A stretch of 64,000 nucleotides of DNA from Parapedobacter tibetensis (lineage in GTDB: Bacteria; Bacteroidota; Bacteroidia; Sphingobacteriales; Sphingobacteriaceae). Location of the stretch: contig NZ_JAMXBE010000012.1 in the NCBI RefSeq assembly GCF_024704835.1, forward strand, positions 62,001 through 126,000, written 5' to 3'. Positions 25,551 to 44,009 of this stretch are shown here, one piece after another. Each line of letters opens with the position of its first letter. The stretch's first letter is position 1. A program made the translations under genes and the position numbers. Under the pieces are notes generated by a model, which made no database searches, was not told where the DNA came from, and saw only the letters and a list, made by a program, of their open reading frames with translations.

Positions 25551-25588
25551 AACTGTTTTGATTATTTTTTCTTTATGGCTAGCTTATA

Positions 25589-25763
25589 TTGAACTCGTTT
25601 AAACTTTTTTCTTCTTTAATCCTCCTTAGGAACAATAGGCTGTTAGCTTGTCGAGCTATTGAAATATCGAACGAAGCGATTAACAAGACAAAGGAAAATA
25701 AAAATCCTATTCCTCCTTCACACCTAAATTGTGGGAAATACTACCCCAATTTAGGTGATATAA
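25589..25763. repeat. Left 175-bp direct repeat bounding the RiPP island
   Basis: This stretch matches 43490-43664 base for base with about 12 substitutions and no indels, in the same orientation, 17,901 bases apart. Its right end is a hairpin: CACCTAAATTGTGGG (25720-25734) against CCCCAATTTAGGTG (25744-25757) around about 9 bases. There is no T-run, so it is not a plain terminator. On the minus strand a short reading frame (LIASFDISIARQ, LFLRRIKEEKSLNEF) is nearly unchanged between copies, but without a convincing start. Both copies lie 36-39 bases upstream of a minus-strand start codon. Confidence 0.85.
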
Positions 25764-25845
25764 CAGGGGATGATGAGCTCAGTGATTCTTTTCCCTGACG
25801 AGGTATAAGCATACCAATATTTATGACTGAATTTATAACTGTCCT

Positions 25846-26304
25846 CTATCGAATGCTCTTCTCCAAAAATCGATCATTAGTCCCAGCAAGCTGAATCAAA
25901 GCCAATCCCATTCCAGCTAGGCCATGGCCTATCCCACAATCTCCAGTTAAATTATCAATGTACTCTGCAGTGCCATTTTCTGAGTTTGTCTTTTGCGTTA
26001 TAAATTGTTCTTTGTCAGCCCATGAAAATACTTTTTCTACGAAATTCAGCTTATCGATTGTATAGTAATTTTCATATAATAGGTCAAATAGTACAGCCTT
26101 ATAATATTCAGCACGTGGGTTTTCATTGGAGGATCGTGCTCGACAATTTATGGAAATGTCTTTAATTAAGTCCTCACATTCCGCTTTTCTCTTTTGGCTG
26201 GTTATGTGCGGTAATACGTTTTGGATAGTTTGAAGAAAAATGTAGCGCTCTATCAACGTATCAAATTTAACTGACGATTTAAAATACAGAGGTAAAATAT
26301 TCAA
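25846..26304 (-). CDS. LanC-like C-terminal fragment (partial lanthionine cyclase-like)
   Basis: A 152-residue reading frame whose only plausible start is a TTG 25 bases after the upstream glycosyltransferase stop. The C-terminal segment GIGHGLAGMGLALIQLAG resembles the (N/H)GLAGIGL repeat of the LanC alpha-toroid. Complete LanC proteins have about 400 residues and bind zinc through two Cys and one His; no such set is visible, and the single Cys/His in GDCGIGHG is not enough to infer a site. It is the last gene of the RiPP cluster. It may be a truncated cyclase, a small LanC-like helper, or an unrelated helical protein; the LanC link rests on one motif. Confidence 0.5.
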   Translation of the reverse strand: MNILPLYFKSSVKFDTLIERYIFLQTIQNVLPHITSQKRKAECEDLIKDISINCRARSSNENPRAEYYKAVLFDLLYENYYTIDKLNFVEKVFSWADKEQFITQKTNSENGTAEYIDNLTGDCGIGHGLAGMGLALIQLAGTNDRFLEKSIR

Positions 26305-26329
26305 TAAAAACTCAGTCCGGTGAAAAACG

Positions 26330-27220
26330 TTACCTAGTACTAAAAGCTATCAGGATAGCCCTGATTTTCTTCAATACCTGTCTTCCGAGCTTTATCGATT
26401 GCAACGTGAATCTATAGACTTCTTTTTTAAGATTACGTTCCCAGAGTAACGGACGCCATGCCAGGTGGTCTATTAAATAATGTAGAACTTCATTTCTTTC
26501 ATCAAAAAAACCTCCTCTCAACCAGGAGGCATATTCATCTAGACCATATTGAATTTTCAGATTCCCACTTGTCTCCTCACTGGTCTGCTTTGGAACTATT
26601 GTTCGTATACCCGCCTTGATTTTGCACATTGCAGATAAGTGCATGTCTTCTGCAGTCTCAAGGGTAAATGGACTCGCACTCCAAAAATAGTCTAGCCATT
26701 GGCGTTTAAAAAGCCAACCATTACAACCAAAGTCAACAACTGTATTTTTGAAACAAAGATTCTGCGAACCTTGCCTTGGGACATCTCCGAAAAAGAACTG
26801 GTTAACATTTTCTAGCCGCTCAGGGAAATAGTCTCCTTTTGGGATAATTCTACCTGCACTACTTATAATTGCATTTTCTTTTTCGCACAACTGCAACGAT
26901 TTTATTAGCCAGTTAGAAGAGGGGATAACGTCGTCGTCCAATATCCAGACATAATTTGTCTTAACATATCGGGCCAATGAAAAGCGACCGAAATATTTAA
27001 GGTCAACCGAAGAATGTAAATGTTCGACGAACGGGAACTTTGCCAAAGTAGCGGAAACATCGACATAATTTTTACATTGATATACCCATATTGCATTAGG
27101 CGTTACCGTCTGTGATAACATTGATTCAATTTGTTCCTCCAAATGATTTCGTTTCCAAACGGTAAGTATTACGGTAACAGTGTTATTTTCGTTGTACATC
27201 GTATTATGTAAATTGTCCAT
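26330..27220 (-). CDS. Family 2 glycosyltransferase
   Basis: A 296-residue GT-A fold protein. It starts with the usual nucleotide-binding strand (VTVILTVWKRN), has the metal-binding acidic motif DDD at residues 95-97 (WILDDDVIP), and a downstream acceptor-site block ETAEDMHLSA with the ED pair typical of catalytic-base regions. No membrane helix is visible, so it acts in the cytosol, using an NDP-sugar. It lies between the LanB glutamylation gene and the LanC-like fragment, so it may modify the precursor peptide, but acceptor and sugar are unknown. An intergenic stretch of about 190 bases upstream contains no gene. Confidence 0.8.
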   Translation of the reverse strand: MDNLHNTMYNENNTVTVILTVWKRNHLEEQIESMLSQTVTPNAIWVYQCKNYVDVSATLAKFPFVEHLHSSVDLKYFGRFSLARYVKTNYVWILDDDVIPSSNWLIKSLQLCEKENAIISSAGRIIPKGDYFPERLENVNQFFFGDVPRQGSQNLCFKNTVVDFGCNGWLFKRQWLDYFWSASPFTLETAEDMHLSAMCKIKAGIRTIVPKQTSEETSGNLKIQYGLDEYASWLRGGFFDERNEVLHYLIDHLAWRPLLWERNLKKEVYRFTLQSIKLGRQVLKKIRAILIAFSTR

Positions 27221-27411
27221 ACGTTATAGTAATATTTGTACTTAAAATGATCGTCTGTTTATTTATCTTATGCGTGAAAGCCACACTAAATGTCCCAGGT
27301 TATTAATTTACAAATCAATTTTGATAAACGAGCATGTATACGTAGTTCAAGGCTCTAAGACTATAGTAATTAGGTCGATACTATGTTGCAGCCTTCTGTA
27401 AACGTAAACAA

Positions 27412-29919
27412 TTATAGACTCATTACGTACTCCCTAACTCGGCCCGGGGAGCTTTCAGTCGCAGAAGGAAGAGCGGGCAGCACTTCAGATAATTCTAGCA
27501 CGCTGTCACTCTTATTAAGCATATTCATGAAGACCAATATTGATAACGGCGCAACGAAGTTTATGTAAAAAGGCTTATAACTATCATAAGACTGACCATC
27601 ATTCCGCTTTCGTGTGTGCGAGAATTTAACAAAGACTTCGCTGGGAATAGAATAATCGCGAATAAATGCATTCAATTTTAAACAAAAAACTTCAGGACGC
27701 TCTTCGAAGACGCCTATGTAAGATCGCAAATAATCCACCTTAATATGCCATTGCTTCCGTTTTAGAATTATTTTTCTGTCGAATATAATTCTGGGGCTCA
27801 TGTGAACATTACAACTAAACGCGGAGTTGATTAAAAAATCGCCAATTCTTTGCATTAAATAGCTGTACCCAAAAAGGTCTGTGCTGTTGAATAAATCCAA
27901 AAATTGTGTAAATTTTGATTTCCTATGTACTGCTTCCATAGAAAAATTCACCGGTTTAACGACTACTCCGTCTCCATTGATAATTCTTACCTTGTTATCG
28001 TCACAAACAGCTAAAAACAAGGAGTTTAGGGGAATATCTTCATTCGAATCAGTATCCGAAGAAGCGATATCTATAGTATAATTTGCTAAAATTGGAAAAG
28101 AATTTGAATTATGGATAGAAGCGTCCCTAACATCAGCAACCATTGAGTCTTTTTCGCAATTAATTACGTATTCGCGACATCTTTCTAAAACATTAGTAGG
28201 GCAAAACCCCAGATATCTAGACACATTAGATCCAAATCCGCCGGAAAAAGAATTAATAATAACGTCCTCAAATTTATTATTAATGAATTGCACAAATGCC
28301 CCAAACTTTATATTGTTATCAATTACGATTGATGATCGGTCTACAAAAGACGAAATATCTATTGGACGGTCACCATCTCCTTTTGCAAGTTCGGCAAGAA
28401 GCTTATCGAGTATAACATTGGCAGCATCAAAATCCACATTCTCGCTGTCGATTGCTTTTTTATTCTTCAGATAAATCTCAGTGTACGCCTCCAATAATGG
28501 CATTCTTTTAACTCCATTTTGCACCATGTACCGATAAAGAAAACTTATACTTCTTTCTTTCAAAGAAATACAGTTTAATGCAAAAAAAACCTCTCGTATC
28601 CTATCCTGCACCGCCTCAATGTGTATACTTTCCAGTTCAACATCAGATGTGGTGAAAACATTTTCGTAGAATAAATTTTTTGAAAGGACCAACTTATTTA
28701 AATAATCGCAAGTTCCGTCAAAATTCAGTGCTTTGCTAATTTGTCGGGAGCAATCATCCATATATTGCCTGCGCTTAGAAATATCATGCGTTGACTCCAA
28801 GGAAAGCACGGTAGACCTAAGAAGCACTAAAAAGCTACGCACTTTCAATACTTCTAAATCGAGGTTTAGCTTATTTCTGTCAATAAAGTCTATCAGACTA
28901 TTGACCCACTCCATGTTGTCTATTGCTACTGGGAATTGGAGGATCAGAATTCCCACGTCTATCAACGCGTTTAAAAATTCACCGATCGTTTCCTCTCCCT
29001 GAGGATATTTAATAGCTATTAAATCTTCCAAATCGCGATGATGAACCGATTGTTTAGCAAGCTCAATAATCGCTATAACGACAGCATTTTTTTTCGCTTT
29101 TTTGAAATACTCGTTATTCTTGACATTAACAAAAAAATGAAAGAATTCATCATCTTCTATTTCTTTGCAAATTGCTGAATTAGGTTTTACGATCAAATGT
29201 CGAACAAAATTCTTATTTCCAAGCAATATTTCTTTGACGCGAAAAAATATTAAATTAGAAATTTGAATTCTAGATTCTTGTTGATTAAAGTCGACTTTTT
29301 TGTATCGTTTTTCCTTCAACTCCAATACAAACACGCTATTTAAGCTGCTAAACGGGGTGGTTTTCGTAACGCTTCTTATAAAGTATTTTGTTATTGCAAT
29401 TAAAAGATTCTTGTTGCTTTTGTCTATTTTAGAGTCTTTAGGTAGTGTTTTTCTGATTTCTTCGTATAGAACATTAGAAGAAAATAAGATTCCGTTAGCC
29501 AAGAAATGTTGTCCCCAGCTCTCTCTAATTGTGTTAACACTTTTTCTTAACTGATTTTTAAAGCTTATTTCAAATTGCTCTTTCTTACTGGCTACTTGGA
29601 ATGAGCAAGAAATATACAAATCGATGGCCTTTTTTAGATCGTCATAGTCACTTACTATACCACTGTATTTTGCGAGATCGCGATTATTGAATACGTCTCT
29701 TTTCAAGGATAAAAGAATATTTCTAGCAGTATCGTTTGATTCTTTACCAATTAAATCGAAGAGAATATTAACAACGGTCTGTTTCAAAGCGTCAGCTTCC
29801 AAGTTAAGTGATGTAATGGAATTACACTCTTCATAGCCTTGTTTCATTGTTAAAAAATCCAATAAGTTGGTACTAGCACCTCCTTGTCGCCCGAAGATTA
29901 ATGGAAATGTAGTTCTCAT
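27412..29919 (-). CDS. Lantibiotic dehydratase, N-terminal (glutamylation) part of split LanB
   Basis: An 835-residue protein that looks like the Lant_dehydr_N domain: an N-terminal segment ending with the conserved block TKTTPFSSL (residues 185-193), equivalent to the R.TPFGLF motif of class I dehydratases, followed by a long helical/beta region without the C-terminal elimination domain. In LanB enzymes this part transfers glutamate from glutamyl-tRNA to Ser/Thr of the precursor. The missing elimination domain is encoded separately at 37978-38862, so the enzyme is split, as in the pinensin cluster of Chitinophaga. It is strongly A+T-rich compared with flanking genes. Cytosolic. Confidence 0.82.
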   Translation of the reverse strand: MRTTFPLIFGRQGGASTNLLDFLTMKQGYEECNSITSLNLEADALKQTVVNILFDLIGKESNDTARNILLSLKRDVFNNRDLAKYSGIVSDYDDLKKAIDLYISCSFQVASKKEQFEISFKNQLRKSVNTIRESWGQHFLANGILFSSNVLYEEIRKTLPKDSKIDKSNKNLLIAITKYFIRSVTKTTPFSSLNSVFVLELKEKRYKKVDFNQQESRIQISNLIFFRVKEILLGNKNFVRHLIVKPNSAICKEIEDDEFFHFFVNVKNNEYFKKAKKNAVVIAIIELAKQSVHHRDLEDLIAIKYPQGEETIGEFLNALIDVGILILQFPVAIDNMEWVNSLIDFIDRNKLNLDLEVLKVRSFLVLLRSTVLSLESTHDISKRRQYMDDCSRQISKALNFDGTCDYLNKLVLSKNLFYENVFTTSDVELESIHIEAVQDRIREVFFALNCISLKERSISFLYRYMVQNGVKRMPLLEAYTEIYLKNKKAIDSENVDFDAANVILDKLLAELAKGDGDRPIDISSFVDRSSIVIDNNIKFGAFVQFINNKFEDVIINSFSGGFGSNVSRYLGFCPTNVLERCREYVINCEKDSMVADVRDASIHNSNSFPILANYTIDIASSDTDSNEDIPLNSLFLAVCDDNKVRIINGDGVVVKPVNFSMEAVHRKSKFTQFLDLFNSTDLFGYSYLMQRIGDFLINSAFSCNVHMSPRIIFDRKIILKRKQWHIKVDYLRSYIGVFEERPEVFCLKLNAFIRDYSIPSEVFVKFSHTRKRNDGQSYDSYKPFYINFVAPLSILVFMNMLNKSDSVLELSEVLPALPSATESSPGRVREYVMSL

Positions 29920-29973
29920 GAAAACTCGATCCGGATTTGTAAAAATTAAATTTTCTATGGCAGTATCAGTAAT

Positions 29974-31149
29974 TTAACTCAAAGTATGTTTTATGACCTC
30001 TTCAATGTCAAATTCGAGCATCGTTTGGTGTATCTCTCTTTTTAAACTTAAAAGCATAGGAAGACTACACAACCTCCCATTTTTAAATTGGTCAACACAC
30101 TCTACAAATATTTCAAAATGATTTTCGTTGTCTTTTGGATGCGGGACGTGTTTTGATACTTGCTTCATTTGCAATACCATTGCTACATCTTCTCTATCAT
30201 AGCACAATGTTCCCAACGTTATTGCAGGCTTCTCATTCAGTATGGGATAGTGGTATATCCCGGAGCCGCACTGATGAATTATCAAATCCACGGAAGACGA
30301 AACAATATCTAGCGGCAAAAATTTATTTTGAAAAACCCTCGGCCTTTCATGGTCTTTTTTGACTATATAATCAACTGTGGTGATTACGCAGAATTCCTGT
30401 TCCACCAGATAATCAATATAGGCTTCCGCCGGGGTATTATCGATCAGACCCAATGTTAGGAACACTTTTCTTCTATCGCGATTAGCCTCAAAAAACTTTT
30501 CTAAATTTTTAATTAGCAAGTCTGAAGGATTGTCTTTTACGGTAAGCGGACCAGCAAAGAAGTATGAAGTATCATCAGACAAAGAATCCGGAAGTATTTC
30601 AATAGACCGTATTCCCGGGACAATTTTTGTCTTGGCGTTTAAGTATTGTTTTAAGAACTTTGATTCCGGAGTAGAATCGTTAAGCTGGGATTGGTCGTGA
30701 AAAAAATCAAGCAATCTGCTGGCTCTATTACCTTTATCGTCTTTCTCTGCAGAATGAATGTGATGTTCCCGCCTATATCGATTATCTATAGACCTGAAAA
30801 AACCAGTCCGTTGGACTGAAATTCTGGGAACGCCATTCTTTTCTGATATTAATGGGCTAGTAAAGCAGTTATCCTCAATTACAATGGAAGGTTTTATCAA
30901 ATCGAACGATTCTTGTTCGGCAGCAAAGATCTCCCGTCTCAGCTTTTCTAAGCTGTGGTGGGATCGGACCGAATAATCTAAGTTAACACAGTTTATGCCA
31001 CTAGCCTTAAGTAGCTCTTTATTCTGTTCTCCAACCAAAAAGAAGTTATTTACATAACTTAACCTTCTGAGATAACGCTGGTGGAAAACAAATAGAGGAA
31101 TTAAGTGAGAATGCCCTCCAACCAAACTGGGTATTGATAAAATATTCAT
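29974..31149 (-). CDS. Glycosyltransferase, GT1/MGT-like (GT-B fold)
   Basis: A 391-residue protein starting with a GT-B N-terminal strand (MNILSIPSLVGGHSHLIPL; the HxxP pattern is typical of macrolide/UDP-glycosyltransferases). The C-terminal donor site has HQCGSG at 292-297 and YDRED at 317-321, matching the HGG.GT...DQ signature with changes: Cys replaces Gly and Arg-Glu replaces Gln. It may thus use an unusual donor or be weakened. It overlaps the upstream DUF2927-like gene by four bases (ATGA), which implies translational coupling, and precedes the LanB gene by 54 bases. A role in decorating the peptide is inferred from position. Confidence 0.72.
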   Translation of the reverse strand: MNILSIPSLVGGHSHLIPLFVFHQRYLRRLSYVNNFFLVGEQNKELLKASGINCVNLDYSVRSHHSLEKLRREIFAAEQESFDLIKPSIVIEDNCFTSPLISEKNGVPRISVQRTGFFRSIDNRYRREHHIHSAEKDDKGNRASRLLDFFHDQSQLNDSTPESKFLKQYLNAKTKIVPGIRSIEILPDSLSDDTSYFFAGPLTVKDNPSDLLIKNLEKFFEANRDRRKVFLTLGLIDNTPAEAYIDYLVEQEFCVITTVDYIVKKDHERPRVFQNKFLPLDIVSSSVDLIIHQCGSGIYHYPILNEKPAITLGTLCYDREDVAMVLQMKQVSKHVPHPKDNENHFEIFVECVDQFKNGRLCSLPMLLSLKREIHQTMLEFDIEEVIKHTLS

Positions 31150-32513
31150 TTGGCCATGTCTAATTCAATTTCCTTAAAATCCGCTAATTTCAGGCCATCT
31201 ATAAATTCGTTGGAATAAACTAGCTTCAATAAGTTTGCATATCGAGGGGTAAATTCTATTTCATTTCCATTGGTCTTAAACAACTCGTTGGTACGGGATG
31301 GCTCATTGGGCATCTGAATTAAGCTGAAGTAGATCGCATCAATTATACTCCGCGGCCTTAATTCCTGAGCGCTTTCACTAGCGTTAAAAGAAAGCTGAAC
31401 CTTATTTTTGATAAGCTTTGGAAACATACAGGTTCTCCCCGCGATTATTTCGTTACTGCCTTTTACCGATGCTTTCTGGTTATCCGATTGACGGAAGTCA
31501 AAAACAATTCCGTGACTGGGTTCCATAGCGGGTGACGCAGCTAGTTTGAGGTTTATATTGGGAGATATCTTATTGAGGGCCAAAATGGCACGCGCTATGG
31601 TGAGTGAGTCCTCTTTTTGTATCGGTCCATACAAGTATAGGTTTGTTTCTTTTGGGTGTTTTAGGAAGACGCCATCGAAAAAACATTTTTCTACATCCTC
31701 ATACGACGTTTGCGGGTATTTTGCTAGCAAATTTTCAATCTTCTGATGTGTGTTAACCGCGTAGAGCTCATCAGCAAAATTCTTTTCAAATGACTCCCTC
31801 GTGTAGTTTGCAGGAATCACTGGTTCGTAGAGTAATGACAGCACATCAACGTCTAATGGTGTTAACGATTTAGCCGGATTGTAATTTTCAAAGAAAAGAC
31901 TGCTCGGATAGTTATAACTGTCGCCTATGATACCAAGCGATTGTATAATTTCCTCCAGCACGATCTTGTACCTGGTTGAGTAGGTCAGGTCCTTTTCCGT
32001 GTAATAAATGCCGACGTTAGCCTGCTCTATAATGCCATCATAAGCAGTTGATCTCACCATTCCAACATGCCAATCGGCATCATTATCGCTTATAAAAACG
32101 CTGTCTGGCTTAAAAAAGGCGTTAACCTCTTTTAGATCTCCAAAAAAAATCCTGATCAATGCGGAATCACCTGGAGCAGCCAAGGATAACCTGATAGGAA
32201 GTTTCAACTTATTTACATCCGAAATTGCTCTTTCTACATATCCAATCTCCTCTTCAGTTGGATGCCCTAAAATTGCAATCGTGGGGTTGGAACTCAGTTT
32301 TGTAATGACATTACTCATTCCGTTGTCATCCTCATGAAAAACAGTTTCATAAAAGTAATTCAATGTTTCGATACCGTATTTGTCTTTTAGATATTTCAAG
32401 TTTCTAGAACTGATTGTCGATTCATCCTTTGGAAGGCAGCTGGGGGATATAGCTAAGAAATGAATCCCTAGCATCCAATAAACGAATTGACTTTTTATTG
32501 ACGATAGCGCCAT
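31146..32513 (-). CDS. Exported protein with two DUF2927-like domains
   Basis: A 455-residue protein with an N-terminal hydrophobic segment (about 8-25) followed by Cys26, a possible but weak lipobox. Residues about 75-240 look like DUF2927: a ferredoxin-like strand set, then LEEIIQSLG (186-194), GDS, and LTPLDVDVLSLLYEP (217-231). Residues about 288-445 repeat the same plan (NLYLYGPIQKED, LALNKISPNINLKLAASP, ... RPRSIIDAIYFSL, LLKLVYS) but lack the EEIIQ and LTPLD signatures. The family has no assigned function. It sits directly after the precursor gene, separated by a hairpin, and could be an immunity or surface-associated factor; this is a guess from position. Confidence 0.65.
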   Translation of the reverse strand: MALSSIKSQFVYWMLGIHFLAISPSCLPKDESTISSRNLKYLKDKYGIETLNYFYETVFHEDDNGMSNVITKLSSNPTIAILGHPTEEEIGYVERAISDVNKLKLPIRLSLAAPGDSALIRIFFGDLKEVNAFFKPDSVFISDNDADWHVGMVRSTAYDGIIEQANVGIYYTEKDLTYSTRYKIVLEEIIQSLGIIGDSYNYPSSLFFENYNPAKSLTPLDVDVLSLLYEPVIPANYTRESFEKNFADELYAVNTHQKIENLLAKYPQTSYEDVEKCFFDGVFLKHPKETNLYLYGPIQKEDSLTIARAILALNKISPNINLKLAASPAMEPSHGIVFDFRQSDNQKASVKGSNEIIAGRTCMFPKLIKNKVQLSFNASESAQELRPRSIIDAIYFSLIQMPNEPSRTNELFKTNGNEIEFTPRYANLLKLVYSNEFIDGLKLADFKEIELDMAK

Positions 32514-32545
32514 AGTGTTATATTAAGCATGTGATAAGCAATGAT

Positions 32546-32583
32546 AAAAGTGGGTTCAATGAAGATTCAAAGAACCCACTTTT
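32546..32583 (-). terminator. Stem-loop downstream of the precursor peptide gene
   Basis: AAAAGTGGGTTC (32546-32557) and GAACCCACTTTT (32572-32583) form a perfect 12-bp stem with a 14-base loop; the minus-strand transcript ends the stem in a short T-run. It lies 107 bases after the precursor stop and 33 bases before the next start, the place where RiPP operons often have a leaky terminator favouring precursor expression. Confidence 0.75.
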
Positions 32584-32689
32584 AATAGTCTACAAAGTAA
32601 CATTTCTTCTTTTGGAATTCAGTACCTAATCATTTTCCTTAATCATGCCAAAAAAATTGAAAATGAGTACTTGAAATGTCACCTGTAGT

Positions 32690-32962
32690 TTAATTAGGGT
32701 AATAATCATACTCTTCTTTAACCACGGTACTATCGCCACCATCGGCTTTTTTAAATGTAGTAGTCGTTGTTTTTTTTGTTTTAACCTGTTTCGGTTTGCT
32801 AGCGGTAGCAGCAACAATAATTCCAATTGTGGTTATTACGGTTCCGACAAGTACATAAACCCCACAGGGAACAGTAGTACCACCTTTAATCTCCGTAAGC
32901 TCTTGCTCACATAGCTGAACAGCATAGCTGTCAACCATTAAATCTTCAATTGATAATTTCAT
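32690..32962 (-). CDS. RiPP precursor peptide with Gly-Gly leader
   Basis: A 90-residue peptide. The leader (1-28) begins MKLSIEDLMV and ends ELTEIKGG, the double-glycine cleavage signal of C39 exporters and close to Bacteroidetes GG-leader precursors. The 62-residue core starts TTVPCGVYVL, contains a hydrophobic Gly/Thr-rich helix (about 33-54), then a Lys/Thr-rich tail with TTTTT and a Tyr-rich end (DYYPN). It has about 15 Thr and only one Cys (Cys33), so at most one lanthionine ring could form. It lies 86 bases after the HlyD gene and before a terminator-like hairpin. The shape also fits a class II-like pore-forming bacteriocin. No homologue was recognised. Confidence 0.75.
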   Translation of the reverse strand: MKLSIEDLMVDSYAVQLCEQELTEIKGGTTVPCGVYVLVGTVITTIGIIVAATASKPKQVKTKKTTTTTFKKADGGDSTVVKEEYDYYPN

Positions 32963-33048
32963 AAAAAATAAAAATAAAAATGATATTAAACTCCTACTCT
33001 TTTATTGGTTTTTCGGATTCCACCATGGCTATGATTTTCTTTAATGCA

Positions 33049-34323
33049 TTATTTCTTATTAAATACGTATAAAATGTTTGAAAACACTCTTTCAAGTAAG
33101 TTTCGGTCATTTGTAATTATCTCTCCGATACCCCTCATATTATCCCTAATTACCATTCGGCTATTCGAAATATTTTCATTGTCAAGTTTAATCCTTCCTA
33201 CATAAAAATCCTCCCCTGCAATTGACGAAAACTCCGACAGGTTACCCTCAAGTAAACCGTACTCCTTGTAAGGATAATCATTAAGCTTTATTAGAACCCG
33301 CTGACCAAGCTTGACTTTACCTGCACCGGCAACGTTTATATTAGCTTTGACAGAATGAAAGGTACTGTGAGGCAATACAGTAAGCATTTTGCCAGAAAAA
33401 AAATTACCTTCCTCCAAATTTTGCAAGAAATGAACTTTGCCCTGTACCGGTGAAACGAACAAATAGCGTTTTTTCCAAGCTTCGATAGCGGAATGAATAC
33501 GTCCCAAGGATGTTTTAATTGATACGGTTTGAGTTAATAAACTTTGTCTTTCCTCATTCAACAAACTATTCCTTTTATTCTTAAGTGTACCTATTTCTGC
33601 TTCAATCCTAGTTAGCTGTATTTCATTTTGTTTCAGTTCCAATTGCTTGATGTAGTAACTCTGCCTACTGTTGTTATATTCACCCTTACTTAGGACTTTT
33701 CGTGAAAACAAAATAGAGTCAGCTTTAAACCTCTCCTCATTGATATCATCTTGGTTATTATTGATTTGAGTTAACGTAGAATACTGCCGTTTCAACTTTA
33801 TCCGGTCTTCAAGTTCTTCCTCTATATACTCGACTTGCACCTTGAAAAAGTTCAATTTTTGAATTTTGTAATATGATAATAATTGATCTGACAAAGAGCT
33901 CCATTCGTTTTCGATAGTTTCGCCTAACTGCATTTCCTTTCCGATATATTTCTCAAAAAATCCGACTAGTCCTTCTTCGTCGAGAGAAATAGTTTTCAGG
34001 TCTTTGTCCAACATCAACACATCCTGATAATTTGCACTATTCCTGAAAACTAAAAGACTTGTGCCGTCTTTTACCGTCGCATTATTTTTAACCAAAATTT
34101 TTTCAATTTCGTTACCTTCTGCGATTTGAAATGTAATACTCGGATTGTTGGTGGAAACTTCAATATCACATTTGATAATATCCGGATACCTAACAATGTA
34201 GGCGAAGAAAAACAATAGCAGAAATATACCCAGAAAAATTGTAATCCCCCAACGCATCCACCACTTAGGCTTCATCGTGTATACGTCGTTAAAAAACTCT
34301 TCCCGTAAATCAAAATTTTCCAT
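33049..34323 (-). CDS. HlyD-family secretion periplasmic adaptor
   Basis: A 424-residue protein from the ATG at 34323 (MENFDLREEF), 7 bases after the ABC transporter stop; a TTG eight codons upstream would overlap that gene. It has a short cytosolic N terminus, one membrane helix (about residues 26-48), a biotinyl-lipoyl-like half (VKDGTSLLVF), a long coiled-coil hairpin (about 145-255) and the second lipoyl half (RYLFVSPVQGKVHF). This is the standard membrane fusion protein of bacteriocin exporters. It pairs with the C39 ABC transporter to move the processed peptide across the periplasm. The outer membrane partner is not in the cluster. Confidence 0.88.
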   Translation of the reverse strand: MENFDLREEFFNDVYTMKPKWWMRWGITIFLGIFLLLFFFAYIVRYPDIIKCDIEVSTNNPSITFQIAEGNEIEKILVKNNATVKDGTSLLVFRNSANYQDVLMLDKDLKTISLDEEGLVGFFEKYIGKEMQLGETIENEWSSLSDQLLSYYKIQKLNFFKVQVEYIEEELEDRIKLKRQYSTLTQINNNQDDINEERFKADSILFSRKVLSKGEYNNSRQSYYIKQLELKQNEIQLTRIEAEIGTLKNKRNSLLNEERQSLLTQTVSIKTSLGRIHSAIEAWKKRYLFVSPVQGKVHFLQNLEEGNFFSGKMLTVLPHSTFHSVKANINVAGAGKVKLGQRVLIKLNDYPYKEYGLLEGNLSEFSSIAGEDFYVGRIKLDNENISNSRMVIRDNMRGIGEIITNDRNLLERVFSNILYVFNKK

Positions 34324-34330
34324 CCCTGTT

Positions 34331-36508
34331 TTAACTATCAAGTTCAATTTGATTGCTAACTAAATTGAAATAATGACCTCTAACTGCGACAAGCTCTGAG
34401 TGGGTTCCAACTTCAACAATCTCACCCTTATGTAAAACGACAATTTTATCGGCTCTTTTTACTGTACTAAGGCGATGGGCAATTATTACGCTTGTCTTTT
34501 CTTTTAGGATTCGTTCAAAATTATCGCTTATTTCTCTTTCGTTTTTTGCATCTAAGGAATTTGTTGCTTCATCAAAAAATAGAAAATCAGGATTCTTATA
34601 GAGCGCTCGAGCGATTAAAATTCGTTGCTTTTGCCCCCCACTAATACCGAATCCACCGTTTCCTATAGGAGTGTATAGCTTAAGAGAAGTCCCATTTATA
34701 TATTCCCTAAGATTTGAAAATTCAATAACGGATTTCAACCTCTCTTCATCAATGCTTTCTGAGTCTAACACAATATTCATCAGTATAGTGTCATTGAATA
34801 TTTTGCCGTCTTGAAGTACTGCCGCACTTTTTTGTCGCCAATTATATAGGTTTATCGAATTTAACGGTGTGTCGCCGACGAATATTTCACCTTCGTAGGT
34901 ATCGTAAAGTCGCAGCAGCAGTTTCATTAAAGTAGTTTTCCCGCTACCGCTCTGACCAACTATCGCCGTCATTTTGCCCTCTTCTATTTCGAGGTTTATT
35001 TGCTTCAACACGTTTGGTGTGCTCTCATGATATTTAAAAGACAGATTAACTAGTCGTATAGTTCTCTTCGATGGAAGAGAGGATTCAAAGCCGTCAAAAA
35101 TTTTTTCTTCCTTCTCCTCTTCTACAACTTCGTTTACTCTCTCTAAACTAATATTTGCATCCTGGTATGACTGAACCAATCCAATTATTTGTCCTACGGG
35201 GCCATTCATTTGACCAATAATGTACTGAGCGGATAGCATCATTCCTATAGTCATTTCACCTTCTACTACCGCTTTTGCTGCAACGAATGTGATCACAATG
35301 TTTTTAATTCTATCAATTAAAGTTGTTCCGAAATGCTGAGTTTGTGATAGATTCAATGATTTTACAGTTAAATTGGAAATCTCTGCTCTACTTTTTTCCC
35401 AATCCCACCTCTTTTTCTGATTTAAGTTGTTGATTTTTATTTCCGTGCTATTATCGACAATCTGGATAATTTCATTTTGATTTTCAGTGTTGGCATCGAA
35501 CAATCCAAGATCCAGCCTTCTTCTTGCCCCAAGAAATAAAAAGATCCAAATTAAATACAAAATCGTGCCGCCAAGAAACACCAGGAATAATTGAATTTTA
35601 TAAAAACATAATATCGCGGCATAAACAATGAAACTTAAAGTTGAAACAATAATTCCTAAGAAAGCATTCATAAGAAAAGCTTGAATACGGTTATGATCCC
35701 CGATTCGGTTCAATATATCGCTTGTCATCTTTCTTTCGAAGAAGTTAATGGGCAATCGTAATAACTTAGATAAAAAGTCTGACACCATGCTGATATTAAT
35801 TCTATCCGCAACAAACAATATAACTCTGCTCTGTATGTAGTGTGAAATTACTGAGCTTAGTGTTAACACCAGAGAGGCAACTAAAAGAATGTTAATAAAG
35901 TCGAAATCTTTTGTCTCTATTCCAATATCGACAATTGACTGTGTAATAAACGGGAACACAAGACTGACAGCCACTCCGGTTATCATTCCGATCAGGACTT
36001 GGAAAAGAAAGTTTTTGTATGGCAATACATACCCAGCATATCGGTAGATGTTTTTTCTAACTTTTACGTCTTTCTGTTGATATAATTTAGGGCTTGGCTC
36101 GATTACCAGAACGACTCCCTTTTCGTGGCGCCCTGTCCAACACTTTTCAAACTCAGCTTTAGTATATTTTACCAAGCCGATTTGAGGGTCTGACAGAAAG
36201 AATATGCTTTTACTAATTTTGTATATCACAACGAAGTGAGTATATCTCCAATGTATAATACAAGGCAACTGCACTTTTTCGGTGAGATCCTTTACTGATA
36301 ATTTTAGTGGCAAAGTCCGTAATCCAATTTCGTCTGCGACACGGCTAATATCCTTCAAAGAAACCCCTTCTCTGGCTATGTTACACTTTTCGCGCAAATA
36401 CTTCATGGAAAAATTTTTTCCGTAGTATTTACAAATAATCTTTAAAGATGCCGGACCACAATCCATCGCATCTAATTGTTTAAAGAAAGGAAATCTTCCC
36501 AGGCTCAT
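34331..36508 (-). CDS. Peptidase-domain (C39) bacteriocin ABC exporter
   Basis: A 725-residue protein combining three modules. The C39 peptidase occupies about 1-130 with Cys17 (AMDCGPASL), His91 (RYTHFVVIY) and Asp107 (LSDPQIG), all catalytic residues present. The membrane domain (about 160-440) has six helices. The ATPase carries Walker A GQSGSGKT (518-525), signature ISGGQ (622-626), Walker B FLFFDE (642-647) and the H-loop AHRLST. It should cut the precursor after the Gly-Gly leader and export the core. The length is typical for LctT/SunT-type transporters. It lies one step upstream of hlyD in the same operon. Confidence 0.94.
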   Translation of the reverse strand: MSLGRFPFFKQLDAMDCGPASLKIICKYYGKNFSMKYLREKCNIAREGVSLKDISRVADEIGLRTLPLKLSVKDLTEKVQLPCIIHWRYTHFVVIYKISKSIFFLSDPQIGLVKYTKAEFEKCWTGRHEKGVVLVIEPSPKLYQQKDVKVRKNIYRYAGYVLPYKNFLFQVLIGMITGVAVSLVFPFITQSIVDIGIETKDFDFINILLVASLVLTLSSVISHYIQSRVILFVADRINISMVSDFLSKLLRLPINFFERKMTSDILNRIGDHNRIQAFLMNAFLGIIVSTLSFIVYAAILCFYKIQLFLVFLGGTILYLIWIFLFLGARRRLDLGLFDANTENQNEIIQIVDNSTEIKINNLNQKKRWDWEKSRAEISNLTVKSLNLSQTQHFGTTLIDRIKNIVITFVAAKAVVEGEMTIGMMLSAQYIIGQMNGPVGQIIGLVQSYQDANISLERVNEVVEEEKEEKIFDGFESSLPSKRTIRLVNLSFKYHESTPNVLKQINLEIEEGKMTAIVGQSGSGKTTLMKLLLRLYDTYEGEIFVGDTPLNSINLYNWRQKSAAVLQDGKIFNDTILMNIVLDSESIDEERLKSVIEFSNLREYINGTSLKLYTPIGNGGFGISGGQKQRILIARALYKNPDFLFFDEATNSLDAKNEREISDNFERILKEKTSVIIAHRLSTVKRADKIVVLHKGEIVEVGTHSELVAVRGHYFNLVSNQIELDS

Positions 36509-36579
36509 AATTAATAGGTTTGAATCGACTCTGAAACCTAACTAAAAGGACGCGTTTACGTGTTTATCGCCTCTTACTT

Positions 36580-37932
36580 TTAGAAAATACATACATTCAT
36601 TTTAATTAAAACTTGCAGGTTTTCAATCGAGTATCTATCGTTAACCCGCCCTTTAAACTTACGTAGCGATTCCCGATAGATGTCGTTATCTAATACATCT
36701 TTCATTTTTTGTTTCAGACTATCCACACGTTCGTAATCAAGTACACCTCTAAGTCCTAACTTATGAAACTCCACTTTATGGGCATTACTATTTTGGTCAT
36801 AAAAAAGATCTAATGGAAATACAATCATTGGCACTTCGTAAAATATGCTTTCCTTTATGCTGCCCATACCACCGTGAGTAATAAAAGCAGCAGCATTTTG
36901 TAACACTAAGGTTTGGGGAACTTTATAAAAAAGCGAAATGCGGTCTCTCTCCTGTTTTTCTAAATTGATAGCATCGATTACATACTTGTTAACTGAACAC
37001 ACTAGGTGTACCCGTTCAAAATCCCCTAGTGTAGTCGAAAGCAGCTTTATAAAGTTTAATAGTTTTCTATCAGCTCTATCGAAAAAAGTACCAAAGCTGC
37101 AATAGACAATTCTTTCACCATTGGCCTTTTTTTTCAATATATCCGGCCAATTTCTGCAAAAAGAATCATCCAGCTCAGTGTCAACTCTTTCGTTTCGTTG
37201 GCAAAGGCCCAAGTAGAATTGATGCGCTTTTCCAGCATTTAATTCATATTCAAATTCTTCAGGTAAAAGTATTAGTTCAGGAACGTCCTTAAAAAGAAGC
37301 GTGAACTTGCTTCTAACCGGCATTTCCTTACCGCTAAGGCCGACCTTCTTTATCAAATTAAAATATTGAATATCCCTCGCTAATCGTAAAAGAGACTGCT
37401 TACCTCCGAGAATTAAGTCCCATAAATTTACTTTTAGAATTTCTGGTTCCGAGTAAGAAGTATCTGTTTCTGTTCCATTTGAAAAACTAGGGAATGTATC
37501 TATGGTATAAATAGATGGCATCGGATTGAAAAATGCGATATTTAAACTGCGGTATTGTTTTAGTACGAAAAAATCGGTACTCATGAAGACATCTATGATC
37601 ACTAGATCTGGTTGCCAATCCCTTACAATTCGGTCATAAAGATCTTTCCTTTTCCAATACAATTCGTTTGTTACATATGCCTTGAATAATCGCGCAAAAC
37701 TGACCTTTCCATATTTTTCCTTTATATACCTCTCTTCAAAACCTAAACCTATTTTTGGACCACCTAATGTAAAATATCTAAAGCCGTTTTTTTTACACAG
37801 CGTTCCTAAAGCTTCTGAACAAACTGCATACACAACCTCATATTCTTCAGAGAGCAACTCCGCTAAATAAAAAGAGGGAAGCACATGGCTCCTTATGCAT
37901 GCAGGAATGAAAATTGCCTTTTTTTTAGACAT
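36580..37932 (-). CDS. MGT-family glycosyltransferase (GT1)
   Basis: A 450-residue GT-B enzyme. The acceptor half starts KKAIFIPACIRSHVLPSF, with a His-x2-Pro motif, and the donor half ends with the GT1 signature HGGMGS (353-358) and DQN (379-381), all intact. Such enzymes transfer a sugar from an NDP donor to a small molecule or peptide. Of the three glycosyltransferases in this cluster it is the most canonical. It lies between the LanB elimination gene (45 bases upstream) and the ABC exporter (71 bases downstream), so modification before export is likely but inferred. Confidence 0.84.
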   Translation of the reverse strand: MSKKKAIFIPACIRSHVLPSFYLAELLSEEYEVVYAVCSEALGTLCKKNGFRYFTLGGPKIGLGFEERYIKEKYGKVSFARLFKAYVTNELYWKRKDLYDRIVRDWQPDLVIIDVFMSTDFFVLKQYRSLNIAFFNPMPSIYTIDTFPSFSNGTETDTSYSEPEILKVNLWDLILGGKQSLLRLARDIQYFNLIKKVGLSGKEMPVRSKFTLLFKDVPELILLPEEFEYELNAGKAHQFYLGLCQRNERVDTELDDSFCRNWPDILKKKANGERIVYCSFGTFFDRADRKLLNFIKLLSTTLGDFERVHLVCSVNKYVIDAINLEKQERDRISLFYKVPQTLVLQNAAAFITHGGMGSIKESIFYEVPMIVFPLDLFYDQNSNAHKVEFHKLGLRGVLDYERVDSLKQKMKDVLDNDIYRESLRKFKGRVNDRYSIENLQVLIKMNVCIF

Positions 37933-37977
37933 CGGGTTCTTAAATTGGTTGGTAGATGAAATTATATCAATGTTTCT

Positions 37978-38862
37978 TTAATTATTACAAATTTTGGTTT
38001 CGTTAAAAACGGTATAAATCATAAATGCTATAAAAGACTCATCCCTCAAGTACACCCCTAAACGGTTATTAGTCATGTGGATATGATTTTCGCAATATTG
38101 AACAAGCTGATTGGGTGGAATTAGGTGTTGTGTACTCAGGTCAACATTAACCTGTTGGCAGCATCGCAACCACTGTTCTTCCCAACCTTCACATTTAGTC
38201 TCTTCAAGTTCCGTAAAAAATGTACTCCTAACTATTGAAACAATCTTTTCCTTTTGCTCGAGGAAAGTTTTCTCGAATGCCTTTTTTACCCTTTCAATAT
38301 TTGCCTGTGTAATTTGATTATCAATATCGAGTTTTACAGAATGCATCATACAATTTTCAAAAATGCGTTTAAATAGTTCTTTCCTCGATTCTGATTCCTC
38401 GATTAAACTCTTCGCAAAAATTACATGCATTTTAATTGCAATGGCTATCGCAAGTCCATTGTTCCATCTAGACTCATACTGATTAATGATATTTATCACA
38501 GCCATTGAGGAGTATTGAAATATGGATTCGGCTATTTTTACTCCATTTTTGCCAGAATATCGGTCGACTTCTCTTTCGTAAGGAACGAATTCTATACGAT
38601 AATGCTGGCGGTCTTTTTGTGATTCATAAAATGTAGATCCATTTCTCACGATGTAGCTTCTGACGTCAGGGATGCTTTTATTTCCTTTTGGTAAAACCCT
38701 CAACCTGATGTGGCTTCCACCTTCCCAGTATCGTATAAAGAAATAGGAGCGAATCAAATCCATATTGGTTAGTTCCACTACAATTTTTCTGATCAAGGCG
38801 GCAATAACTCGCTCGAATGAAAGGTCGCTATATAGATATACCGAGATCCAATTATGTTTCAT
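37978..38862 (-). CDS. LanB C-terminal elimination domain protein (thiopeptide-type bacteriocin biosynthesis family)
   Basis: A 294-residue protein of the SpaB_C/thiopeptide-type family. The N-terminal block W.S.YLYS and the motif FFIRYWEGGSHIRLR (41-55) match the conserved (F)FIRY.DPG.HLRLR of LanB elimination domains. This domain removes glutamate from glutamylated Ser/Thr to leave dehydroalanine/dehydrobutyrine. The glutamylation half is encoded 8 kb downstream at 27412-29919. It overlaps the preceding gene by four bases (ATGA), so translation is coupled. Cytosolic. Confidence 0.85.
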   Translation of the reverse strand: MKHNWISVYLYSDLSFERVIAALIRKIVVELTNMDLIRSYFFIRYWEGGSHIRLRVLPKGNKSIPDVRSYIVRNGSTFYESQKDRQHYRIEFVPYEREVDRYSGKNGVKIAESIFQYSSMAVINIINQYESRWNNGLAIAIAIKMHVIFAKSLIEESESRKELFKRIFENCMMHSVKLDIDNQITQANIERVKKAFEKTFLEQKEKIVSIVRSTFFTELEETKCEGWEEQWLRCCQQVNVDLSTQHLIPPNQLVQYCENHIHMTNNRLGVYLRDESFIAFMIYTVFNETKICNN

Positions 38863-40451
38863 CCTTTCAGGTTAACATTTAACATCCTTTTTATATCAGA
38901 AGCATTATATATCATAGGTAATTCTGCCCCATCCATAAGTATGATGGGCAACTCTGATCGTAAGGCAGATAATTCAAACCAACGAAAATGGTGTATAAGT
39001 TGCTCTAAGCCTAGTTTCTTATCGAATTGCAAAGTTTTGCTCCAATCTTCAAACTTGATAGGCATTTGCTTGTACCAATCCTCCAATGCGACTTTCGCCG
39101 GCACAGAAGTAGTACCTAGTATGGCAGATGCAAGGGTATAATCGAATGATTCTGGATTTTGTGAAACAGCTAAAAAAATCTCACATCTTATTCCGTGATT
39201 CGCTAAAATTAATTCTTGAGTCTGAAAAAAAGCAGTTCTACTCATAAAACAGATAGGACTTAAAACTAGCGTTATGCAGGTACGAGCCTCACTTACTCCG
39301 ATGGTGACAGAATTCATTTTAGAAAACAGTGGTGGCAATTCCTTTTTCTTAGCTAATAAACTTCTTAAATATGCAGGATCATACATCATTTTTTTAATGG
39401 TGTAATAATGCCCTTGGGCCGTAGAAGAGCTTCCTAAGACACCTTTAAAAGAGACCCAGATAACTGTTGGAATTGAAAAAAGTAGAATTAATTGTGTGGT
39501 ATCTTTCCAATCTCCGGAAAATGTAGGAATAACTTTAAACAGTATCAAAAACTCAGCACATAAAAGACCTGAAACTAGTACACAAAGAGGAGACCATCCT
39601 TTTAACTTAGACTGAACATAAAGAATCCATGCAGTGAGACCTAAGGCCAAATAGCTGAAAATTTGCAGCGCATCAATTCTAGAAGGAAGATTACTTAGAT
39701 TTGAAGTTAGTAGGGAAAGCAGTCCACCAGAGAAAAATAATAAGCACAGCTCGGCCCAGTGTAGGCCAAAAATAGACTTCGACATTTTAGATCGGAGTAT
39801 CCGTTCTGAATTTGATGGAAAATTTAGACGTTTATCCTTTCTCCAAAAGCTATCATATTTATCCATCGAGATCTGGACAAGTTTGAAACTAGCTACACTT
39901 CCTATTATTTTGATAAAAAGAAGTAAGTTGAATAGCGTATTGGTAGTTGCTGGACTTTCGAGTAGCCATAACAAAAAAAGTATTAGCGATGCTATCCAAA
40001 GAGAATACCTCTTCCTGCGCCTGTTAGTTTCTTCTAGTTTGTACTTCTCGTAATCGGTATCTCCTGATAGTGCACTCGGTTCAATCACGAGAGAAACGCC
40101 ATTCCATTTTCTCGAAAAGTCCGCTATATGATCTCGGCCAGCTCCCAAATCGTTGTGAAACCACTCGACAAAACCATTTTCCACCTTTTCGACAGTCACA
40201 TATCCAATGTTGTTATTCAGGTATACGATGACAGGAAGCGTGATTCTCTGAAGCAAAATAGGATCGATTCTAACAGCTAAATTGGAGACATTAAAAGATG
40301 TGAGGGTATCCTTTAAGGATTGCATTGACGGAAAATGCGGATGTTCGAGTAAAGTTTCTTGCAACCGTGTGTCAGTAACTTTAATATTAACAATTTTGCA
40401 AGCTCTCCGAACAGTAAAAGCGGCATTACGTTCTATGGAGTTTATTTTCAT
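38859..40451 (-). CDS. C39-like/VKOR/thioredoxin fusion membrane protein lacking redox cysteine pairs
   Basis: A 530-residue protein with a degenerate C39-like N-terminal domain (about 1-125; EHPHFPSMQSLKDTL, but no peptidase Cys at the expected site), five or so membrane helices of a vitamin K epoxide reductase-like domain (about 150-335) and a thioredoxin-like C-terminal domain (about 380-525). Bacteroidetes proteins of this type normally have CPLC in the VKOR domain and CxxC in the thioredoxin domain. Here these read SPLC (287-290) and CFMS (401-404), and the loop position normally occupied by Cys before VL.SK is Ser (213 or 215). It is unlikely to form disulfides; it may be a scaffold or a decayed gene. 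First long gene of the RiPP operon. Confidence 0.72.
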   Translation of the reverse strand: MKINSIERNAAFTVRRACKIVNIKVTDTRLQETLLEHPHFPSMQSLKDTLTSFNVSNLAVRIDPILLQRITLPVIVYLNNNIGYVTVEKVENGFVEWFHNDLGAGRDHIADFSRKWNGVSLVIEPSALSGDTDYEKYKLEETNRRRKRYSLWIASLILFLLWLLESPATTNTLFNLLLFIKIIGSVASFKLVQISMDKYDSFWRKDKRLNFPSNSERILRSKMSKSIFGLHWAELCLLFFSGGLLSLLTSNLSNLPSRIDALQIFSYLALGLTAWILYVQSKLKGWSPLCVLVSGLLCAEFLILFKVIPTFSGDWKDTTQLILLFSIPTVIWVSFKGVLGSSSTAQGHYYTIKKMMYDPAYLRSLLAKKKELPPLFSKMNSVTIGVSEARTCITLVLSPICFMSRTAFFQTQELILANHGIRCEIFLAVSQNPESFDYTLASAILGTTSVPAKVALEDWYKQMPIKFEDWSKTLQFDKKLGLEQLIHHFRWFELSALRSELPIILMDGAELPMIYNASDIKRMLNVNLKG

Positions 40452-40514
40452 GGGCGAAATGTGTCTAGTAAAACCCGTTGTGCGGTTTAAACGGCGAGCG
40501 CGTGTTTCAACCTG

Positions 40515-40922
40515 TTAATATTTCTGTTGTTTAAAAAGTTCATGTACTGCAATACAGCCACTGCGGATACCTTGGTACTTTCCGGCGATTTCACTGTCCG
40601 ACAAGACACCAGAAAAACTCATTTGTACGTGACCCTGGTGCAAAACGAAATAGAGCGTATCGTCGCTGTAGGTAAAAGTATCAAGTTTGGCGTTGTCGAC
40701 AGAAAGTGCAGGAATACTCAAGTACCCAACAGGTTCGTTGTCTGGGCCGTTACAAACTTCCAAAATATAGTTAAACGGTTCCTCAGACCCGGGATCCAAC
40801 GCTTCCCAAAGCCCTAAGATATTCTCATTTTCTTCCTGACCTTGACACGCAAAAAAAAAGAATAGCTCAGACCAATCAAAAGAACAAACATTTTTATCTG
40901 AGTCATGCTTTTCCAAATTCAT
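40515..40922 (-). CDS. Lipoprotein with a lipocalin-like GxW domain, signal peptide out of frame
   Basis: The 135-residue frame from 40922 has no signal peptide, but its first 25 residues are an odd mix. In the next frame, ATG at 40906 gives MTQIKMFVLLIGLSYS, a perfect lipoprotein signal, and adding one T to the run of nine (plus-strand A9 at 40851-40859) joins it to FFACQGQEENEN, a lipobox. The downstream domain (LGLWEA ... SFSGVLSDSEIAGKY) resembles the N-terminal domain of the hydrolase lipoprotein encoded at 41244-42716. Either phase variation or a homopolymer error explains the break. It leads the RiPP operon 63 bases before the C39/VKOR gene. Immunity is possible but unproven. Confidence 0.6.
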   Translation of the reverse strand: MNLEKHDSDKNVCSFDWSELFFFFACQGQEENENILGLWEALDPGSEEPFNYILEVCNGPDNEPVGYLSIPALSVDNAKLDTFTYSDDTLYFVLHQGHVQMSFSGVLSDSEIAGKYQGIRSGCIAVHELFKQQKY

Positions 40923-41243
40923 TTATACCATAATGCTATTACCTTTTGTGGGTCTCCGTTGCTTTTCAGACCTAGGGTCTGCACTTTTGCAAGTATTAAT
41001 ATAATAAGCTGACATTTTTTAACTTTAGTCTATTGCAATACAAATGTAAGTAGTTAACATAAAAGGATTTGATCTTTAATTTTCCATTTTGAATTACTTT
41101 TTTACATTTAAATCCAAAAAGGCATGTTTCTCAATTGATTTATAAAATGCTATATATTCGCAAGCCGATTAAGATAGGATTCTGCTACCTTCTCGGTTTT
41201 AGGACTGTTTTTTCGTATCATCTTATAATAGGGTGCAATTAGC
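40923..41243. other. A+T-rich intergenic region, likely promoter of the RiPP operon
   Basis: No credible gene. On the minus strand TACATTTG (complement of 41041-41048) is a -7-like box about 120 bases before the operon's first start codon, but no -33 TTG is at the right distance. The other strand shows nothing beyond poly-T runs. Confidence 0.35.
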
Positions 41244-42716: not shown

Positions 42717-42722
42717 AAAAAC

Positions 42723-43058: not shown

Positions 43059-43121
43059 CGCGTATTAATTTGTTTGATTATTCGCTAACCATAAAATCAT
43101 TCAGTATTTCCTCAAAAACTA

Positions 43122-43454: not shown

Positions 43455-43489
43455 AAAGCGCTATCATTTTGACTATCGGATATTATATC

Positions 43490-43982: not shown

Positions 43983-44009
43983 GGGATGGGTTTCAACCCA
44001 TCCCTTTTT
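43983..44009. terminator. Rho-independent terminator
   Basis: GGGATGGGTT (43983-43992), 2-base loop, AACCCATCCC (43995-44004), then five T on the plus strand. It lies just after the stop of the small minus-strand gene at 44014, so it may serve transcripts from either side; the T-run is better on the plus strand. Confidence 0.75.

Follow-up and report, generated by a model that had tools for sequence, protein, structure and literature searches.

A gene cluster at positions 25846-40922 of a 64,000-nt stretch of Parapedobacter tibetensis DNA (GCF_024704835.1, NZ_JAMXBE010000012.1:62,001-126,000; here the window, to which coordinates refer unless a locus or contig is named) encodes both halves of a split LanB dehydratase, a short precursor with a leader resembling those of pinensin-type peptides, a peptidase-containing exporter and glycosyltransferases. 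No LanC cyclase was found with them. On a fine balance this is probably a branch of the pinensin family that does without LanC. Its product would be dehydrated at Thr/Ser and probably glycosylated, with a hydrophobic core and no more than one small ring. An earlier note on this DNA, made from the letters alone, had proposed a glycosyltransferase-bearing, split-LanB cluster for a ribosomally synthesized and post-translationally modified peptide (RiPP), without a complete LanC. That outline holds up against family profiles, and two further clusters share it: one from an uncultured Maribacter (L091) and one from a Chitinophagaceae metagenome-assembled genome (MAG; L118).

The cluster and its enzymes

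Families were called against the profile cut-offs of Pfam and NCBIfam, and structural kin were sought by sequence in the PDB; the glutamylation and elimination proteins of the split LanB are called LanBN and LanBC. Every open reading frame (ORF) of the cluster lies on the minus strand, and the main ones are open (Table 1). The order in the direction of transcription is C39-VKOR fusion, LanBC, GT1, C39-ABC exporter, HlyD, 90-aa peptide, DUF2927 protein, GT1-like protein, LanBN, GT2. From the fusion through GT2 the intergenic gaps run from -4 to 191 bases; 4-base overlaps occur at two junctions, one of them that of the GT1-like gene with the DUF2927 gene.

Table 1. Features of the cluster, listed by window position (GT, glycosyltransferase)
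Feature	Coordinates	Strand	Size	Basis and remarks
ORF of doubtful role and membership	25846..26304	-	152 aa	single LanC-like GxxG motif near its end
GT2 glycosyltransferase	26330..27220	-	296 aa	PF00535 1.1e-5, over cut-off; no PDB match
LanBN	27412..29919	-	835 aa	PF04738 E 1.1e-19, over cut-off; best stretch covers only profile positions 4-215 of 649
Probable GT1-like glycosyltransferase	29974..31149	-	391 aa	weak assignment; NCBIfam TIGR04516 0.013 only
DUF2927 protein, apparent lipoprotein; candidate immunity (or processing) protein	31146..32513	-	455 aa	PF11150 3e-12, over cut-off
Hairpin and U tract, terminator/attenuator-like	32545..32584	-		3' of the precursor gene; z -4.9, 0/200 shuffles equally stable
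Precursor	32690..32962	-	90 aa	28-aa leader ending in GG, 62-aa core; pinensin-type leader hidden Markov model
HlyD-type adaptor	33049..34323	-	424 aa from ATG (432 aa from upstream TTG)	TIGR01843 4.9e-28, below cut-off
C39 peptidase-ABC exporter	34331..36508	-	725 aa	PF03412 4.2e-35, PF00664, PF00005
GT1/UGT-type glycosyltransferase	36580..37932	-	450 aa	PF00201 5.3e-11, over cut-off; PDB kin include oleandomycin glycosyltransferases
LanBC	37978..38862	-	294 aa	PF14028 4.1e-35, TIGR03891 3.4e-27, both over cut-off
C39-like, VKOR and thioredoxin-like fusion	38859..40451	-	530 aa	PF03412 1.8e-7, over cut-off; PF07884 3.6e-5
ORF of uncertain membership	40515..40922	-	135 aa	upstream of the fusion; no Pfam or NCBIfam match

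The two proteins read earlier as a split LanB match the corresponding Pfam families, and the dehydratase of a class I lanthipeptide cluster is present in split form. Conservation was examined in the columns that are invariant across 14 relatives, to which the window proteins are 22-23% identical on average. LanBN retains 52 of 83 such columns, including R11, Y179, R182, K186, P189 and F190, and LanBC 23 of 30, including H51, R53, R55, E98, R101, H262, N266 and R267; several of these we take to match catalytic residues of NisB and TbtB. When relatives are left out one at a time, they retain fractions of 0.66-1.00 (LanBN) and 0.77-1.00 (LanBC); the window proteins, at 0.63 and 0.77, lie toward the bottom, on a par with L044, which has diverged most among the relatives. 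The nearest PDB entries are, for LanBN, weak matches to 9jhq (a goadsporin protein, E 0.01) and 6ec7 (a lantibiotic dehydratase domain protein, presumably TbtB, E 0.048), and for LanBC 9g04 (E 3.9e-7).

The rest of the apparatus is largely as the earlier note had it. The exporter retains C17, H91 and D107 of the peptidase and a Walker motif, as expected of the intact enzyme that had been described, and the HlyD protein and the peptide with a GG leader are both in place. Of the three glycosyltransferases that the earlier note had called unrelated, the GT2 and one GT1 protein exceed their Pfam cut-offs; the third matches nothing in Pfam or the PDB. Glycosyltransferase genes, the mark of a glycosylated-RiPP cluster, lie within the cluster, two by family (PF00535, PF00201) and a third weakly.

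The precursor

The core of the 90-aa peptide has one Cys, at core position 5, a hydrophobic stretch of 19 residues (mean hydropathy 2.24) and a Thr-rich tail (TTTTT). It has 15 Ser/Thr and, if cleavage follows GG, an unmodified monoisotopic mass of 6595.50 Da. The leader resembles those of pinensin-type peptides, a likeness overlooked by the earlier note. A hidden Markov model (HMM) was made from 31 leaders of relatives, with those of L091 and L118 excluded; it ranks the peptide first of 945 ORFs in the window (E 0.0016, runner-up 0.054) and scores the Maribacter and L118 precursors at 8e-7 and 2.3e-6. The NCBIfam pinensin leader profile, NF038180, is passed by the Maribacter precursor (24.7 bits, cut-off 24), the L118 precursor and a Pedobacter example. 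Over 67 residues the window and Maribacter precursors share 36% identity (E 2e-10); core Cys5 and a Thr or Ser at core position 2 are common to both.

By eye, the cluster has no other peptide with a GG leader. The stretch 25500-44600 contains 162 ORFs of 25-130 aa; in 17 of them a GG, GA or GS pair sits at a position suited to a leader, and 7 of the 17 lie outside the large genes.

LanC and a second lanthipeptide cluster

Neither Pfam nor NCBIfam scans found a LanC near the cluster, in keeping with the earlier note, and the in-cluster cyclase of class I lanthipeptides is absent. A search of the whole genome with PF05147 gave two matches, both on contig C56. The earlier note had gone further in taking the 152-aa ORF for the surviving end of a LanC. 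That remnant status is unsupported: the ORF has no LanC family match in Pfam or NCBIfam, and its likeness is short and motif-level: residues 71-139 give a weak, local match to a profile made from the LanCs of 16 relatives (with E-values against 1 or 16 targets, thus flattering). The ORF was not accepted as a LanC. Searched for in 301 genomes of the family, it occurs in one, its own; its AlphaFold model, at a predicted local distance difference test (pLDDT) of 42, is uninformative.

The C56 matches belong to a second, complete and canonical class I lanthipeptide cluster of the same genome (300585-315791; L003, L008). It contains an NF038153-type precursor with two core Cys, a complete LanC (303897-304949, PF05147 E 2.4e-28), a 228-aa partial LanC, a LanB pair, a zinc dehydrogenase, a CAAX-protease-like protein, an exporter, HlyD, a UDP-galactopyranose mutase and several glycosyltransferases. 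A complete LanC elsewhere, with matching distribution, had been named in the earlier note as something that would speak against its proposal; a complete LanC exists, but inside its own canonical cluster and with a different type of leader, which fails the pinensin-type leader HMM (E 40).

Related clusters

Genome searches with LanBN, which score only a few candidates per genome, gave no match in the 8 other genomes of the genus, nor, at E 1e-12, in 394 others across the phylum; within the family, Sphingobacteriaceae, 18 others of 301 genomes have distant relatives. A first scan of named genomes gave no match, and plasmids one only, covering 20%. An alignment scan of the named genomes then gave 70 loci; these and L044, 71 in all, were annotated by phmmer with the window proteins and the 16-locus LanC profile, four LanC members being checked against PF05147.

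Among these loci LanC is the rule: 57 of 71 match it, mostly in proteins of about 600-690 aa that are usually encoded next to the exporter and the LanB pair. A precursor was recognized by its leader pattern in 50 of the 57, always with at least two core Cys, and none was found in the other seven. The 14 loci without a LanC match include several short contigs, four from Saprospiraceae (exporter, HlyD and LanBN only) and three from Actinobacteria. The three LanC-less clusters with a precursor considered here have one core Cys (window), one (L091) and none (L118).

One of these loci, L091, is syntenic with the window cluster. It runs GT2, DUF6625, LanBC, exporter, HlyD, precursor, DUF2927, LanBN, an outer-membrane efflux protein, GT2, GT2 and a methyltransferase, with no LanC match within its 22.5 kb. 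The order LanBC-exporter-HlyD-precursor-hairpin-DUF2927-LanBN is common to it and the window, save for the two GT1-type genes interposed in the latter; the hairpin 3' of the Maribacter precursor has a z of -3.75. The proteins are remote: LanBN is 24-26% identical, and the phmmer values are 2e-292 for the exporter, 3e-63 for HlyD, 4e-19 for DUF2927 and 1e-16 for LanBC. A quick LanBN tree of 42 rows (31 near-copies, short or poor rows left out) pairs the window with L091 at 99% in the Shimodaira-Hasegawa-like approximate likelihood ratio test (SH-aLRT), with a long-branch warning. Full LanC does accompany the more distant pinensin-type clusters, as a mere deletion derivative would lead one to expect, but not this nearest syntenic one. 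That a syntenic cluster exists in another family strengthens the idea of a new type voiced in the earlier note.

Another of the loci is L118 (18.4 kb of a 24.2-kb contig examined), the third LanC-less, glycosyltransferase-bearing cluster. It holds LanBN, two LanBC-type proteins, exporter, HlyD, a zinc dehydrogenase like that on C56, GT2, and hexapeptide- and methyltransferases; its precursor is Cys-free and hydrophobic, and it has no DUF2927 match. The second PF14028 protein beside its LanBN and LanBC lies at L118:8488-9513.

Glycosyltransferases were surveyed by phmmer with 11 queries (10 of glycosyltransferase type and DUF6625) in loci of at least 18 kb with LanBC. None of 54 loci with LanC had a match and two of five without LanC did (L091 and L118; the other three are the Actinobacteria), in a survey biased by queries taken partly from L091 and L118 and by a LanC-bearing set largely of Pedobacter, Chryseobacterium and Chitinophaga. 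The short locus L102, without LanBC, also has a match. HlyD matches occur in 6 of the 54 and in both L091 and L118.

Two observations on the wider set may be recorded. The four Saprospiraceae MAG loci (L082, L083, L093, L122) combine a C39 exporter, HlyD and LanBN and have no elimination-protein or LanC match in the locus; LanB might perhaps be used there in the manner of an aminoacyl-tRNA ligase. In Chryseobacterium sp. CH21 (L117:13497-15420) a LanC-type gene is present as two ORFs of 425 and 166 aa, possibly by frameshift.

The DUF2927 protein

DUF2927 adjoins the precursor in both the window and the Maribacter cluster. The family is rare, with PF11150 in 8 of 395 Bacteroidota genomes (own included), 12 of 249 in family f4 and 17 of 301 in the organism's own family (own included); given how rare it is, chance is an unlikely explanation for finding it next to the precursor in two distant clusters. 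The earlier note had called the protein a tandem; the DUF2927 assignment stands, but the window protein matches in one stretch, and it is the 676-aa Maribacter protein that has two.

The closest kin stand elsewhere. Those in G078 (same genus), G007 and G229 are 80%, 71% and 55.5% identical, and dN/dS against G078 is about 0.21, indicating purifying selection. In all four proteins a Cys comes after a hydrophobic stretch at the N-terminus, which suggests a lipoprotein (the listed ORF of G229 starts 70-odd codons further upstream). The AlphaFold model is useless (pLDDT 32.7). None of 14 DUF2927 loci inspected, including 19.9 kb around each of these three genes, has a nearby LanB match, and DUF2927 was rejected as a marker of such clusters. 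The lone copies in LanB-free loci lead to the idea of an orphan immunity gene. By analogy with LanI, such a lipoprotein, next to the precursor where the peptide is made and solitary where it is not, fits an immunity gene, and immunity is the most likely role. No paper in the literature searched names DUF2927.

A proposed pathway and its rivals

In the pathway proposed, LanBN would bind the pinensin-like leader and place Glu from Glu-tRNA on core Ser and Thr; LanBC would then remove Glu to give dehydroalanine (Dha) and dehydrobutyrine (Dhb). The glycosyltransferases may decorate either the single Cys or the Thr and Ser left over, among which the TTTTT tail stands out as a target. The exporter would cut after GG and, with HlyD and a TolC encoded elsewhere, export what is presumably an antagonistic peptide. 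No enzymatic lanthionine ring is predicted: at most one small core ring, Thr2-Cys5, could form, spontaneously or through the C56 LanC. The DUF2927 lipoprotein would most likely protect the producer.

A number of observations weigh against this pathway. The leader match is modest, and the window peptide is absent from the NF038180 matches taken up to E 1. The LanB proteins have lost 31 of 83 invariant columns in LanBN, among them H608 (now F), and 7 of 30 in LanBC. The third glycosyltransferase is weakly assigned, and action of any of them on the peptide is presumed; on C56, LanC and glycosyltransferases coexist, and the survey was biased as described. L091 is the only syntenic relative found, and it comes from an uncultured assembly. 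Long branches meet in the LanBN tree, where the grouping of all three LanC-less rows has just 65% support. Lone DUF2927 copies make a role tied strictly to such clusters less likely, and the copy in the window could be a resident gene since captured. The complete LanC in trans, the redox-dead fusion described below and the LanC-like scrap would also suit other accounts.

The LanC in trans is the basis of one of these, a fairly unlikely one: the cluster makes an ordinary pinensin-family lanthipeptide, in which the LanB pair dehydrates and the C56 LanC closes one four-residue ring between Thr2 and Cys5. The Cys5 and Ser/Thr2 common to the window and Maribacter precursors suit such a ring, but the C56 enzyme sits with a leader of the NF038153 type, the LanC of pinensin-type clusters is adjacent and typically about 600-690 aa, and the LanC-less state recurs in Maribacter and in L118. 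That recurrence of the layout in Maribacter also counts against decay, an unlikely alternative, by which an ancestral lanthipeptide cluster, already without LanC and its redox partner, is shedding the genes that remain. The earlier note had itself allowed for a decaying path. The 152-aa scrap, the broken Cys pairs of the fusion, the uncertain small ORF at 40515-40922 and the lack of LanBN in the rest of the genus leave room for it; the main ORFs are nevertheless open, most invariant LanB columns and the catalytic residues of the exporter are retained, and DUF2927 is under purifying selection, though its kin stand outside clusters. It is very unlikely that the 90-aa peptide is an unmodified or merely glycosylated membrane-active bacteriocin, of class II or glycocin-like, with the LanB pair serving another, unseen precursor. 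The hydrophobic core stretch, the single Cys, the glycosyltransferases and the miss by NF038180 would all fit; but the peptide has the best leader match in the window, resembles a Maribacter precursor whose leader passes NF038180, and is the only ORF of the cluster that reads, by eye, as a GG-leader peptide.

A LanC-independent pinensin offshoot can also be taken further, as a distinct LanC-free class of Bacteroidota RiPPs, poly-dehydrated, glycosylated and membrane-seeking, in which glycosylation replaces lanthionine rings as the stabilizer and DUF2927 is a new dedicated immunity protein, kept as an orphan gene by non-producers. Peptides of such a class would have a hydrophobic N-terminal half and a sugar-bearing, Ser/Thr-rich tail. 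This extension is possible but doubtful.

Relation to known systems

With the pinensin family (NF038180) the cluster shares the split LanB, the C39-ABC exporter, the leader likeness and the GG cleavage site. It differs in having no adjacent LanC, one core Cys rather than at least two, and a hydrophobic core with a Thr-rich tail, and in having glycosyltransferases, HlyD and DUF2927. Nothing among the scanned proteins of the cluster corresponds to the TonB receptor or to the paired ABC-2 permeases present in the pinensin-type L045.

Glycocins and glycosylated lanthipeptides such as cacaoidin place a glycosyltransferase beside a short leader-peptide precursor, as here; the likeness is one of gene content, and the split LanB sets the window cluster apart. 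Goadsporin and the thiopeptides (GodF/GodG, TbtB/TbtC) use a split LanB for Dha, as this cluster would, but also a YcaO/azole enzyme, which has no match among the window cluster proteins, to which the search was confined. PMC5303826 gives the roles of GodF and GodG and, with PMC10676384, supplies the precedent for split LanB without lanthionine, there with azoles.

In the lanthipeptide survey of PMC7268733 (2020), the distance from LanC-domain protein to precursor was limited to seven genes, pinensin falls in family I 17, and the pinensins are given as all that had by then been isolated from the phylum. LanC-anchored surveys cannot see clusters of the present kind. No title or abstract opening in the literature searched, most subscription journals being outside it, describes a LanC-less, glycosyltransferase-bearing split-LanB cluster. 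Should LanB-only clusters with glycosyltransferases prove real, dehydrated glycopeptides may have gone unnoticed as a group in Bacteroidota. The cluster also gives the DUF2927 family a testable role and points to a LanB lineage in which LanC presence and core Cys number vary together, on three LanC-less cases to date.

The fusion protein and other features

The VKOR fusion of the earlier note is confirmed in its C39 part, and its VKOR match is just below cut-off (24.3 against 27.5 bits); what had been overlooked is that its redox Cys pairs are broken. The ORF is open across 530 residues, and its three-part architecture is that of the C39-VKOR-thioredoxin fusions of Bacteroidota, at 22-31% identity. 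The loop pair, the VKOR CxxC and the thioredoxin CxxC, presumably the catalytic pairs, are intact in all nine aligned relatives, one of which is a paralogue from this genome (C19:16885-18465); in the window protein they read K and S, SPLC and CFMS, and the pairs expected of an active VKOR/thioredoxin disulfide system are lacking. On that ground the fusion was rejected as a disulfide maker for the product. A product with one Cys needs no disulfide; the fusion would then be either drifting or a non-redox partner. On an Emticicia plasmid (NC_018742.1 68263-82919; L183) a C39-VKOR/TlpA/exporter/HlyD/TolC set lies near an annotated thiopeptide-type biosynthesis protein and adjoins the Kiwa defence genes kwaA/kwaB.

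The 135-aa ORF upstream of the fusion is 25% identical over 103 aa to the N-terminus of the adjoining hydrolase at 41244-42716 (E 2e-4, a single comparison). The hairpin 3' of the precursor gene is missing from the list of a simple terminator scan that is itself uninformative (18 found, 12.6 expected).

The 12 ORFs in 25846-40922 have a GC content at third codon positions (GC3) of 0.28-0.42. Six of ten flanking genes measured have 0.50-0.63 and the other four (42723-43454, 47216-49170) 0.28-0.43; the low-GC stretch is compositionally distinct and perhaps acquired. A comparison across the genus gave no empty site, as the neighbouring S41 gene, sought at E 1e-50 in nine genomes of the genus, was found in one, its own. 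S41-type long peptidases flank both LanB clusters of the genome (window 23358-25550 and L003:7759-9975; 28% identity, E 6e-54) and are possible peptide-processing enzymes.

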